From: Chitinibacter fontanus | GTDB taxonomy: Bacteria > Pseudomonadota > Gammaproteobacteria > Burkholderiales > Chitinibacteraceae | NCBI RefSeq assembly: GCF_013423785.1 | Contig: NZ_CP058952.1 | Coordinates: forward strand, 2,321,665-2,385,664 | Reading direction: 5' to 3' | DNA length: 64,000 nt | Part shown: positions 22,187 through 39,379 of the stretch, piece by piece | How the letters are laid out: each line of letters opens with the position of its first letter | How positions within the stretch are numbered: position 1 is the stretch's first letter | The notes under the pieces: model-generated | Database searches by the model: none | The model's input: the letters and a program-made list of their open reading frames with translations, nothing else | Told to the model about the DNA's origin: nothing | Translations under genes and position numbers: made by a program

Positions 22187-24094
<1,908 letters not shown>

Positions 24095-24108: not shown

Positions 24109-24136
24109 AAAAAAGCGACCGGAAGGTCGCTTTTTT
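24109..24136. terminator. Bidirectional terminator after argS
   Basis: AAAAAAGCGACC / GGTCGCTTTTTT (24109-24120 and 24125-24136) with a GGAA loop. It lies between the argS stop (24094) and the convergent minus-strand gene ending at 24143. Confidence 0.92.
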
Positions 24137-25411: not shown

Positions 25412-25534
25412 GGCTTGAAAGTCAGAATGAGTTCAGTGTGTGAGTTTAACTGATTGGTATTGAATGTGCTTGAGTTGGAGTATTTGCGCCGTTGGCGCGA
25501 TGTTTTCAATGCGCGTTCCGCCGCGCAGACGGGC

Positions 25535-25562
25535 AGGGGTATTTGCTTCTGCAAATACCCCT
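25535..25562. repeat. 12-bp perfect inverted repeat, TTCT loop
   Basis: AGGGGTATTTGC at 25535-25546 and GCAAATACCCCT at 25551-25562. It resembles the GGTAT...ATACC hairpins found elsewhere in the window but is longer and perfect. Confidence 0.75.
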
Positions 25563-26058
25563 CCACCCCAAAGCAGCCCCCGGCATCTGCGTCGGCTGCG
25601 CCGATGCCCTCGACTGCGGACAATCGGCAGGGCGGCGGGCTTTAACAAAACAGAGCCCGCCGAATTCCCTTGCCGCTTGTTCCTCGCTCGGCGCAGCCGC
25701 AGGGGAGACCATGTGCCCAACGATTGTTGTATATACATGCCTACGTGTTGCTCTATATATCAATCTAGATTTGATTCTGGTTGATATACCCCATTTCTAG
25801 TTAGCATAAATTGCCCGTGGAGCCGCGCCGCTTTAAAAAGTCATGGCGAGGTTTTAAGCCGCAACCTGTTTGAGCTGCGCGACGCTAGCGCACAGCGAGT
25901 TTTGCGGCGCCTCGCTGTGGCTTTTTCAAACGGGGTTTCGCGTCGATCGGGCGCGTTAGGGTTATCAGGGGCAAGGCAAGATTGTCCCTGATTCGTCCGG
26001 TGGGTGAAACCGCCGGTTTACCGACTGCGCAGCAGGCTTGATATCGTTGTACAAACGG

Positions 26059-26088
26059 TCAAAAGCGACTATTTCGATCGCTTTTTGA
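26059..26088 (-). terminator. Possible terminator of the first PEP-CTERM gene
   Basis: TCAAAAGCGA (26059-26068) pairs with TCGCTTTTTGA (26078-26088) with one bulged T. It lies 18 bases downstream of the minus-strand stop at 26106. The following T run is short (TTTTGACC), so strength is uncertain. Confidence 0.45.
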
Positions 26089-26105
26089 TCTGTTGACTGC
26101 CGGAT

Positions 26106-26858
26106 TTATGCTTTGAATTTTCTGCGGTGTGCCGCCACTAAGCCGAGCAGACCCATTCCCATCAGAGCATAGGTTTCTGGTTCTGGTACGGGAGCGACTT
26201 GCAGATCAATACCAAGGGCATTGGTTGTTGTATATGCATAGGAAGGGACTGATGGATCAGTACCTACTACTGCTGCAAGATTTTCAACGAAGAAATTAAT
26301 GTTAAATGGCGTATCAAGTGCTTGGTTGGTAAAACCACTGAATGTCGTTCTGGTATCAGAAACTTTAGGTGTGAAAGGCCCAACAATATTGCTCGGATTT
26401 TGTGGCTGGTTATTGCGAAATAAGCTGATTACATGATCGCTAGTACCTAAAACCTCGCCTGTTGCTGCAGAAAAGGACGTACTCATCCATGCCCAGTTGC
26501 GGGTAAATGCGTACCGATTTCCGATGCCTTCAGCATCTTTTTTAGTGGCCATGAATGCGGTGGCTGCGCTTAATTGATAGCCTGTTTTTGCTTGTACTTT
26601 GATATCGCCATCCAGTGTTTCGAGGCTGGAGGCGGAAGAGCCATTGCCAATCTGCCTATCGCTCATAATTGGCTGCTGATTTTTCCCGTTGAATTTTAAA
26701 TTGTTGCCTTCAATTACAATATCCAGATTTTTAATCCAGGCTGCCGCCAGATTGATCTGGTAAACGACGTTTTGACCTTCAAAAGTGGTTAATGCTGCTT
26801 GCACTTGGCTTGATGCCAATATGATAAATCCTACAGCCAATGGTTTGATGCCAAACAT
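26106..26858 (-). CDS. PEP-CTERM sorting-domain exported protein
   Basis: A 250-residue secreted protein with signal peptide (LAVGFIILASSQVQA, cut near residue 21) and a C-terminal PEP-CTERM tag. The tag is VPEPETYALMGMGLLGLVAA followed by the basic tail HRRKFKA. Such tags are recognised by an exosortase (EpsH/XrtA type) in exopolysaccharide-making Gram-negatives; no exosortase is in this window. The body (about 22-220) shows no domain I can name and is Asn/Thr-rich. GGAG lies six bases before ATG 26858. The C-terminal tag is almost identical to that of the gene at 27925-28680. Confidence 0.88.
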   Translation of the reverse strand: MFGIKPLAVGFIILASSQVQAALTTFEGQNVVYQINLAAAWIKNLDIVIEGNNLKFNGKNQQPIMSDRQIGNGSSASSLETLDGDIKVQAKTGYQLSAATAFMATKKDAEGIGNRYAFTRNWAWMSTSFSAATGEVLGTSDHVISLFRNNQPQNPSNIVGPFTPKVSDTRTTFSGFTNQALDTPFNINFFVENLAAVVGTDPSVPSYAYTTTNALGIDLQVAPVPEPETYALMGMGLLGLVAAHRRKFKA

Positions 26859-27924: not shown

Positions 27925-28680
27925 TTATTGGCCGCGACGACGACGGGCAGCCAGTAAACCGATCAGACCCATTCCCATCAAGGCATAAGTTTCAGGCTCT
28001 GGTACTGGGGCGACATTAGAAACCGTGTAGCTATTGCCAGTTGGCACATAGTAGAACGTTTTGCCTGCTAGCGCCGCTTGGACTTTGGCACCAGAGTCTA
28101 AGTAAGCATTATTACCTTGGTTCCAAGCAATTGTAGTGGTGGAGTCTTTGGCGATCCCTGCGGTAGCATCTTGAACTAGTTTAGTATCGATGTTGCCGTA
28201 GCTAACAGCAATCGTGCCATCGGCATACCCAAAGCGGTTGCCTTTGCCAAAGACGGCAACTTGGAAGCTGGCTGCGTTATCTGTGCCGCGATTATGCTGA
28301 CCAATATTGTCCCATGTGGCTGAAAACTCGGCCGTACGTGTGTTGTTGTAGCGTAGTGTTCCTGGGTGGTAGACGTGTAAGTCGTCAAACAAGGCAGAAA
28401 TTGCTTTGCCATTGTTTGGTGACGCGCTGCTGCCGTTTGAATAGGTTGTTGAGTTGTTTCCAAAGGTGAGGTAGCCATTGCTGCCCATATAGGTTTGGCT
28501 AAATTGGCTGCCAAAGAAGCTGAAATTGAAATTAAGATTGAGCGCGGAAGTTGAGAAGTCATCCCCAAGTGCGGTCAAAACTACGTCACTATTGTGGTTT
28601 GGGATTAACAAGGCCGCTTGGGCTGCTGAAGTTAAGTTCAATGCAACAAATGCAAGTGCAAGTAATTTTGGCTTATTCAT
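27925..28680 (-). CDS. PEP-CTERM sorting-domain exported protein
   Basis: A 251-residue secreted protein from ATG 28680 (MNKPKLLALAFVALNLTSAA), with signal cleavage after AAQA near residue 22. The C-terminal PEP-CTERM tag is VPEPETYALMGMGLIGLLAA followed by RRRRGQ. Between them lies a region resembling the beta-sandwich found in extracellular nidogen-like or FG-GAP-poor PEP-CTERM proteins (FNFSFFGSQFSQTYMGSNGY, LFDDLHVYHPG). This pattern (an exterior beta domain with SNGYLTFG) is common in secreted matrix proteins. An open frame extends 24 codons upstream but lacks export features. It is divergent from the DUF815 gene. Confidence 0.88.
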   Translation of the reverse strand: MNKPKLLALAFVALNLTSAAQAALLIPNHNSDVVLTALGDDFSTSALNLNFNFSFFGSQFSQTYMGSNGYLTFGNNSTTYSNGSSASPNNGKAISALFDDLHVYHPGTLRYNNTRTAEFSATWDNIGQHNRGTDNAASFQVAVFGKGNRFGYADGTIAVSYGNIDTKLVQDATAGIAKDSTTTIAWNQGNNAYLDSGAKVQAALAGKTFYYVPTGNSYTVSNVAPVPEPETYALMGMGLIGLLAARRRRGQ

Positions 28681-28868
28681 GACAATTCTCTGGTGGCAAT
28701 AGATCGACTTTTTAACCGATATTTCATTTTTATTCAAAATAATATGTAACATAAGTCACAAATAAGTCATTTTCGGGAAAGGTTTCGTTGTAGAGTTCAC
28801 TGATTGCCTTGCCACGACAAGGGGACGAAGCTGCTAAACTTAGCTATTATTTTTCCGAGGCATTCAGC

Positions 28869-34109: not shown

Positions 34110-35644
<1,535 letters not shown>

Positions 35645-35663
35645 AAGAGAAAGACCTGCGGGT

Positions 35664-35687
35664 CAAGTACTCACACTCATCGGCTGT
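35664..35687 (+). other. 16S precursor processing stem, 3' arm
   Basis: Complement of 33957-33980; lies between the 16S 3' end and tRNA-Ile. Confidence 0.85.
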
Positions 35688-35748
35688 AGATTTTGAAGAT
35701 ACAGAGACAGTGCTCAAGGGAACTTGAACACTACTCGGTTGGAAAGCT

Positions 35749-35825
35749 GGGTCAGTAGCTCAGTCGGTTAGAGCACCGTCTTGATAAGGCGGGGGTCGCT
35801 GGTTCGATTCCAGCTTGACCCACCA
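35749..35825 (+). tRNA. tRNA-Ile (GAT)
   Basis: Complete 77-base cloverleaf in the 16S-23S spacer. Acceptor GGGTCAG pairs with TTGACCC, D stem GCTC/GAGC, anticodon stem CCGTC/GGCGG around TTGATAA (anticodon GAT), T arm GCTGG-TTCGATT-CCAGC, encoded CCA. Confidence 0.98.
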
Positions 35826-35863
35826 CTTACCTGTAAGTGGAAACAGCTTAGTAATGCCAGATT

Positions 35864-35939
35864 GGGGGATTAGCTCAGTTGGGAGAGCACCTGCTTTGCA
35901 AGCAGGGGGTCGTCGGTTCGATCCCGTCATCCTCCACCA
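35864..35939 (+). tRNA. tRNA-Ala (TGC)
   Basis: Complete 76-base cloverleaf. Acceptor GGGGGAT pairs with ATCCTCC (one G-U), anticodon stem CCTGC/GCAGG around TTTGCAA (anticodon TGC), T loop TTCGATC, encoded CCA. Lies 38 bases after tRNA-Ile, the usual rrn spacer order. Confidence 0.98.
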
Positions 35940-36040
35940 ATCACAAGAGTTCAGAATTCAGTCAATTGACGAATCGTTTGATTCGGGTAATTGATTTTGT
36001 TCTGGTTTCTTAAATCGGAATGTCGCAAGACATCTGTATC

Positions 36041-36052
36041 GTTCTTTAACAA
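36041..36052 (+). promoter_or_regulatory. boxA antitermination site, 23S leader
   Basis: GTTCTTTAACAA, a second boxA in the 300-base spacer between tRNA-Ala and 23S (35940-36245). The rest of that spacer holds the 23S processing arm and nothing else I can name. Confidence 0.75.
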
Positions 36053-36226
36053 AATAGAAGAAGTAATATCTCCTAATTAAACAATGTGAGCATCAGGTAA
36101 AACTGATGTGAACAGTAAAAAAATTGGGTTGATTGTATCTGCTAGTCGAAAGACTAGCCGTTGAATAGCCTGAGAAACTATTCAACAAGTCGTAAATACC
36201 GATACTCTAAACCGAGATCACGGTAA

Positions 36227-36245
36227 AACGTGTTTGAGGTTATAG

Positions 36246-36253
<8 letters not shown>
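36227..36253 (+). other. 23S precursor processing stem, 5' arm
   Basis: Twenty-seven bases (AACGTGTTTGAGG...CAAGC) of which 26 pair with 39123-39149 just past 23S; the expected RNase III stem enclosing 23S, overlapping its 5' end by about eight bases. Confidence 0.85.
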
Positions 36254-39122
<2,869 letters not shown>

Positions 39123-39132
<10 letters not shown>

Positions 39133-39149
39133 ATAACCTGAGACGCGTT
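39123..39149 (+). other. 23S precursor processing stem, 3' arm
   Basis: Complement of 36227-36253 (26 of 27 positions, including G-U pairs). Confidence 0.85.
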
Positions 39150-39262
39150 GATATGACGTGATACAGTTGACCCAAAGAAATTGTTTGGTGAAGAGAAACA
39201 AGATTACTTCTTCTATTGATTTCGAGTGGTTGTGCATCAAGTACAGCTAACTCACCCAGTTT

Positions 39263-39379
39263 TGTCTGGTGACCATAGCGAGGTGGTCCCACTCCTTCCC
39301 ATCCCGAACAGGACAGTGAAACGCCTCAGCGCCGATGATAGTGCGGATTGCCCGTGTGAAAGTAGGACATTGCCAGACT
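39263..39379 (+). rRNA. rrf: 5S ribosomal RNA
   Basis: About 117 bases, with TGTCTGGTGACCATAGCGAG at the 5' end pairing with TTGCCAGACTA at the 3' end. The internal landmarks GGTCCCACTCC, CCGAACAGGA and GCGCCGATGATAGTG are conserved. Confidence 0.96.

Follow-up and report, generated by a model that had tools for sequence, protein, structure and literature searches.

The structured block between a TPR gene and a PEP-CTERM gene in the window (the whole 64,000-nucleotide stretch of Chitinibacter fontanus DNA that was analysed) is one copy of a dispersed mosaic repeat, and the mosaics each adjoin a variable gene slot; this association is the main point that the original prediction had missed. The block itself appears, with a probability that we put somewhat above even, to be a constant, polar element forming the right-hand border of a slot whose single gene varies, and this cargo would be swapped by recombination anchored in the mosaic.

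A dispersed mosaic repeat of constant order and polarity

The block had been described as gene-free, dense in short inverted repeats, and sharply changing in composition, and each of these descriptions holds. Positions 25412–26105 contain no convincing gene, just overlapping alternative-frame ORFs of at most 106 aa. Eleven inverted-repeat seed hits (arms of at least 8 bp, loops of at most 30 bp) fall at five sites, as compared with a mean of 0.33 hits in dinucleotide shuffles (n = 200); two perfect 12-bp inverted pairs were detected independently in the block, and its RNA folding energy gives z = −7.2 for the + strand and −6.5 for the − strand. GC content passes from 0.41 (25412–25480) to 0.63 (25481–25728), 0.34 (25729–25815), 0.60 (25816–26040), and 0.42 (26041–26105). 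The repeat proper is narrower than the limits originally drawn and spans 25483–26037 (Table 1); 25412–25482 belongs to the TPR gene as its 5′ flank, and 26050–26105 contains the 3′ hairpin of the PEP-CTERM gene.

Table 1. The argS slot in the window, from anchor gene to right-hand neighbour. Coordinates of argS are those of the ORF as listed; its true start is probably further in.
Feature	Position	Strand	Evidence
argS (arginyl-tRNA synthetase), conserved anchor gene	22199..24094	+	orthologue beside mosaic in all five congeners
argS intrinsic terminator	24109..24136	+	junction comparison
Slot cargo, TPR protein, 422 aa, low GC (0.40), N-terminal hydrophobic segment	24143..25411	-	
Module A, hairpin AGGGGTATTTGC-TTCT-GCAAATACCCCT at 25535-25562	25483..25580	+	
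Module B, GC-rich, hairpin 25633-25662, long-range pair 25593-25604 / 25688-25699	25581..25712	+	
AT-rich core, fixed length, ATATAC...GTGTTGCTCT...GATATACCC	25713..25792	+	ungapped alignment and genome search
Module C, structured, 56 consensus pairs, 25 with compensatory change	25810..25997	+	
Module E (CCGGTGGGTGAAACCGCCGG...GCGCAGCAGGC), right-hand repeat end	25996..26037	+	
Hairpin with flanking A/T tracts, outside the repeat, probably the PEP-CTERM gene terminator	26061..26085	.	
PEP-CTERM protein gene, right-hand (E-side) neighbour	26106..26858	-	

Elsewhere in the window, a second PEP-CTERM protein (27925–28752) lies near the one at 26106–26858, and the C-terminal sorting segments of the two are nearly identical; a complete rRNA operon (16S, two tRNAs, 23S, 5S) occupies 34110–39378.

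The same-genome search that the original prediction had proposed returned 27 matches at about 15 loci, and each of the five congeners holds 24–33 matches. The block is thus a multi-copy sequence, as the option of a dispersed chromosomal repeat had it, and it does not appear to be a fragment of a known insertion sequence. The further option of the remains of a mobile element was not demonstrated: neither defined ends, nor a target duplication, nor a transposase belonging to the repeat was found in this genome, although RAYT-type (REP-associated tyrosine) transposases adjoin mosaics in four congeners (see below). A reading of the modules as MITE ends was set aside, no constant terminal repeats being seen: copies vary, starting with module A and finishing with module E or with an inverted module. 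No target duplication was noticed at the junctions of copies examined by eye.

Modules were recognised by side-by-side reading of the copies, some in interchangeable types (A or A′, B or B′). They follow the order A/A′, B/B′, an AT-rich core of about 60 bp, C or inverted B′/A′, and E; order and polarity are constant in 78 oriented mosaics from six species (this genome and its five congeners), although tandem duplications and incomplete copies occur. An alignment of 60 core copies requires no gaps, the motifs ATATAC, GTGTTGCTCT, and GATATACCC being nearly invariant and the two ATATAC boxes 53 bp apart. A sequence model of the core (R1) scored 18 copies in this genome as strong and a further 30 or so solitary copies as weaker. 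Many solitary cores lie between ordinary genes; one of them, a near-perfect palindrome (about ATGGGTATATGGCTGTAG...CTACAGACATATACCCAT), keeps its position at uvrA in all six species. Matches to the core model were restricted to this genus and two related genera among 61 genomes. Two functions proposed for the core were discarded: inspection by eye found no matching −35/−10 pair of a promoter across the fixed 53-bp spacing, and column covariation was weak for an attenuator with alternative pairing.

The consensus fold of module C, built from 36 sequences, comprises 56 pairs, with 97% of cells paired and double compensatory changes at 25 of the 56. Sliding the partners by 1–3 columns as a control reduced pairing to 37–51% and the number of double-change cells from 269 to 8–40. 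The A′ hairpin likewise shows compensatory change at 9 of 17 pairs. Since stems are kept by compensatory change, the structured RNA that the original prediction had listed among its options is compatible with these alignments as a candidate. On the A-to-E strand of module C, G·U cells outnumber A·C cells (73 versus 10) at those pairs that are mainly Watson–Crick; this excess points to the A-to-E strand as the folded one, in a test where the structure was itself predicted on that strand and the cells are non-independent. Module A′, for its part, folds better on the strand opposite to A-to-E. In A′ modules (alignment A4; e.g., L153:9433–9505), a third occurrence of the stem sequence lies immediately downstream and covaries with both arms (e.g., TTTCCTT / AAGGAAA / AAAGGAA), so that two mutually exclusive hairpins are possible. 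Comparison of the block with the Rfam 15 covariance models returned no match above the gathering score, the best sub-threshold match being BjrC68 at 20.1 bits (cut-off 39).

Variable slots beside conserved anchor genes

The anchors beside the mosaics are the same in six species and include argS, polA, aspS, uvrA, gatB, metH, nrdA, nrdB, exbD, uvrC, hrpA, and others, the gene names reflecting our reading of the translations. The layout nearly always runs from the stop codon or terminator of the housekeeping gene, through a low-GC accessory gene, to the A end of the mosaic; in this genome, 13 of 14 anchors are oriented towards it. Taken over the six species, A-side ORFs have a median GC content of 0.40 and fall below 0.45 in 53 of 77 cases, as compared with a median of 0.535 and 9 of 78 cases on the E side (paired Wilcoxon p = 1e-9).

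The cargo turns over between species while the anchors stay. The argS slot holds six different genes in the six species (422, 361, 223, 174, 165, and 138 aa), and at its left junction all six share the sequence as far as the final T of the argS terminator, with no relatedness past that point. In ten slots, a low-GC ORF is present in 54 of 56 species–slot combinations, though a few of these 54 are short, possibly spurious ORFs. Same-slot cargo is homologous in 3 of 121 species pairs, two of which rest on partial matches of ATPase-type proteins only, and differs in the other 118. Despite this difference, the anchor ends are 87–92% identical on average; of the genes lying upstream of these anchors, 51 of 53 pairs are homologous. 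The right-hand neighbours of the mosaics are intermediate, 28 of 97 pairs being homologous. Plasticity therefore extends beyond E, and it follows that the mosaics may simply mark breakpoints, which counts against reading them as slot borders.

Several states of a single slot were observed at nrdA: a core without A or B modules in G003; a mosaic without cargo in G001, G002, G004, and G005; and a mosaic with cargo in this genome (G000). Cargo genes occur in both orientations, and IS elements also occupy these places. At L160:9972–13508, a low-GC ORF of 111 aa next to a mosaic lies between two copies of the same IS transposase (487 aa), an arrangement resembling a composite transposon within a slot. 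A two-gene cargo (292 + 98 aa) is shared by the nrdB slot of this genome and the gatB slot of G002, with 73 and 63% identity. This pair (L164:2246–3408 and L155:9962–11130) encodes a HATPase-like and a DUF4325-type protein (Pfam names by inference) and is a candidate defence or signalling pair; the member that was tested has no strong PADLOC match.

Models of anti-phage defence systems recognise at least 16 of the 80 cargo proteins (E ≤ 1e-12) and none of 72 E-side genes (Fisher p = 2e-5 for sets that are not GC-matched). Matches in this genome include Shedu SduA and an AbiU-like protein; among those in congeners are a dCTP deaminase, a dGTPase, a ThsB-like TIR protein with a caspase, FRG, a PifA-like protein, and several ATPase systems. 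The TPR cargo protein in the window matches TPR_17 only and none of the defence models. A relative of it (28% identity) is found in the aspS slot of another species.

Module shuffling and the proposed exchange of cargo

Modules have been shuffled among the mosaics. Under quiet inheritance along with the slots, orthologous C modules would be the most alike, and this is not what is observed: identity is 0.835 for modules of the same slot, 0.845 for modules of the same genome in other slots, and 0.826 for all others. The nearest neighbour of a C module lies in the same genome in 21 cases, as compared with 7 expected. This pattern fits frequent ectopic exchange or conversion among mosaics. For modules A and B, the nearest neighbour occupies the orthologous slot in 12 cases each (3.5 and 2.5 by chance, respectively); some vertical inheritance therefore remains.

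Cargo is probably swapped by recombination anchored in the repeat. Dispersed mosaics would supply long shared homology, at which incoming or ectopic DNA carrying another cargo gene together with a mosaic would recombine on one side; a second crossover would fall in or near the 3′ end of the housekeeping gene. Such an event would replace the cargo, leave the flanking operon unharmed, and shuffle the modules. RAYT transposases may have spread the hairpins; the folded A-to-E strand, as RNA or single-stranded DNA, would be what selection maintains, and anti-phage and other accessory genes would be parked in the slots. No recombination event was observed, nor was a common left-hand sequence found that would permit slot-to-slot exchange by two crossovers. 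The repeat may aid either the swapping of genes at slots or their separation.

A rather unlikely alternative is that mosaics are selfish palindromic repeats of the REP/BIME kind, spread by RAYT transposases into permissive spots behind operon terminators, where foreign genes share the niche without mutual help. Polarity argues against this: it is strict, and low-GC cargo accompanies the A side but is rare on the E side, where defence models find nothing at all. RAYT genes do adjoin mosaics in G001, G002, G003, and G005 (directly beside them at L183:489–1019, L079:2338–2868, L070:2078–2668, and G003:C1:1923917–1924435), and GTAG-tagged palindromes lie next to several mosaics; the presence of IS elements in the same places and the variability of the right-hand neighbours also speak for selfish repeats. 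However, mosaics occur without any RAYT in this genome and G004, in neither of which a RAYT gene was found, and RAYT as the sole driver was rejected because this genome has none. Moreover, module C, at about 190 nt and with a branched predicted fold, is unlike a REP of 20–40 bp.

We consider it improbable that the mosaic is a transcribed functional RNA, the A-to-E strand of which would fold and would insulate or regulate the cargo through 3′ stability, a block to read-through, or a small RNA. Compensatory change in the stems, the G·U excess on one strand of module C, and the orientation of 13 of 14 anchors in this genome towards the mosaic would all suit such a transcript, but several anchors end in a conserved intrinsic terminator ahead of the slot, cargo genes face either way, the opposite strand gives the better fold for module A′, and no promoter was identified. 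Site-specific recombination, with the fixed-length core as attachment site and the cargo as cassettes inserted by a dedicated recombinase, is very unlikely: the rigid 53-bp spacing, invariant boxes, and solitary copies of the core, along with the occurrence of one cargo family in different slots, are in its favour, but the cargo is located outside module A and away from the core, the core is present in both the occupied and the empty state of the nrdA slot, most slots lack a duplicated core flanking the cargo, and no recombinase gene was seen travelling with it.

Relation to known repeats and gene-exchange systems

Individual modules differ in how widely they are distributed. At least 119 stretches, from Betaproteobacteria and a few Gammaproteobacteria, carry the A′ hairpin, which is often arranged in inverted pairs. 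Together with a downstream CAAAGAAAGGCGACC and a CAAACAG/GAGTT hairpin, it was found in Variovorax, Polaromonas, Dechloromonas, Gallionella, Jeongeupia, and others. The inverted pairs are separated by about 280–700 bp and enclose GAACTC...CAAACAG hairpins (L184–L263, e.g., L194, L219, and L250). No name for the A′ hairpin was found in the literature searched. At L224:1554–3137 (Sideroxydans) and L184:5727–7264 (a Burkholderiales MAG), low-GC DNA lies between two facing A′ hairpins. As a general rule for A′ hairpins, the slot association was rejected, the flanks of 80 loci in other genera not being low in GC on average. The mosaics of this genus share the A′ hairpin with its downstream CAAAGAAAGGCGACC and the CAAACAG/GAGTT hairpin with this widespread proteobacterial repeat, but differ from it in their low-GC neighbours and in the core and long module C, which are almost entirely limited to this genus and close relatives. 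A search of 120 genomes of the order for long module C placed it in one distant genome besides this genus and the sister genus. Named neighbours (Jeongeupia, Deefgea, and Silvimonas) put the present genome close to the Chitinibacteraceae. Occupied slots built in the same way exist in the sister genus (G015, G052), those of G015 at polA and aspS, while no mosaics were found at the sampled polA, aspS, uvrA, or argS loci of seven other genera.

REP/BIME elements with their RAYT (TnpA-REP) transposases (e.g., PMC3733652, PMC2817692, PMC8266576) resemble the mosaics in being intergenic, dispersed, palindromic, and combined into mosaics, and in four congeners a RAYT lies nearby. The mosaics differ from them in that their modules measure 70–190 bp rather than forming 20–40 bp units, stand in a fixed polar order around a conserved core, are tied to variable gene slots, lack a GTAG or CGTC head on inspection, and exist in this genome without RAYT; separate GTAG-headed palindromes adjoin some mosaics. 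Minimal mobile elements and core-genome defence hotspots of Neisseria (e.g., PMC10250203) are similar in placing different accessory genes, including defence cargo, between conserved genes. The system described here differs in having many slots at once, usually of one or two genes each, and a common structured border repeat. Its left anchors are conserved and its cargo is different in 118 of 121 species pairs, but conservation of the right-hand anchor is partial (28 of 97). Integron cassettes with attC sites are comparable as small accessory genes, each beside a structured repeat, but the slots here are dispersed, the repeat is polar while cargo takes either orientation, and no attC consensus was seen by eye. 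No tandem cassette arrangement was seen in the loci read. In the open-licence literature, we found no description of such repeats, of the hairpin sequence, or of repeat-bounded defence slots.

Tentatively, these features could amount to a gene-cassette system unlike an integron, a transposon, or a phage-borne hotspot, with a dozen or more fixed docking slots across the genome, interchangeable and mostly single anti-phage or accessory genes, and one polar structured border repeat whose folded strand would be under selection. An apparently junk repeat is linked to sites of defence-gene gain and loss, and most cargo proteins here have no strong defence-model match. If the border repeat drives or tolerates exchange, it would provide a simple sequence tag by which new single-gene defence systems could be found, as well as an experimental route to how bacteria maintain neutral landing sites beside essential genes.
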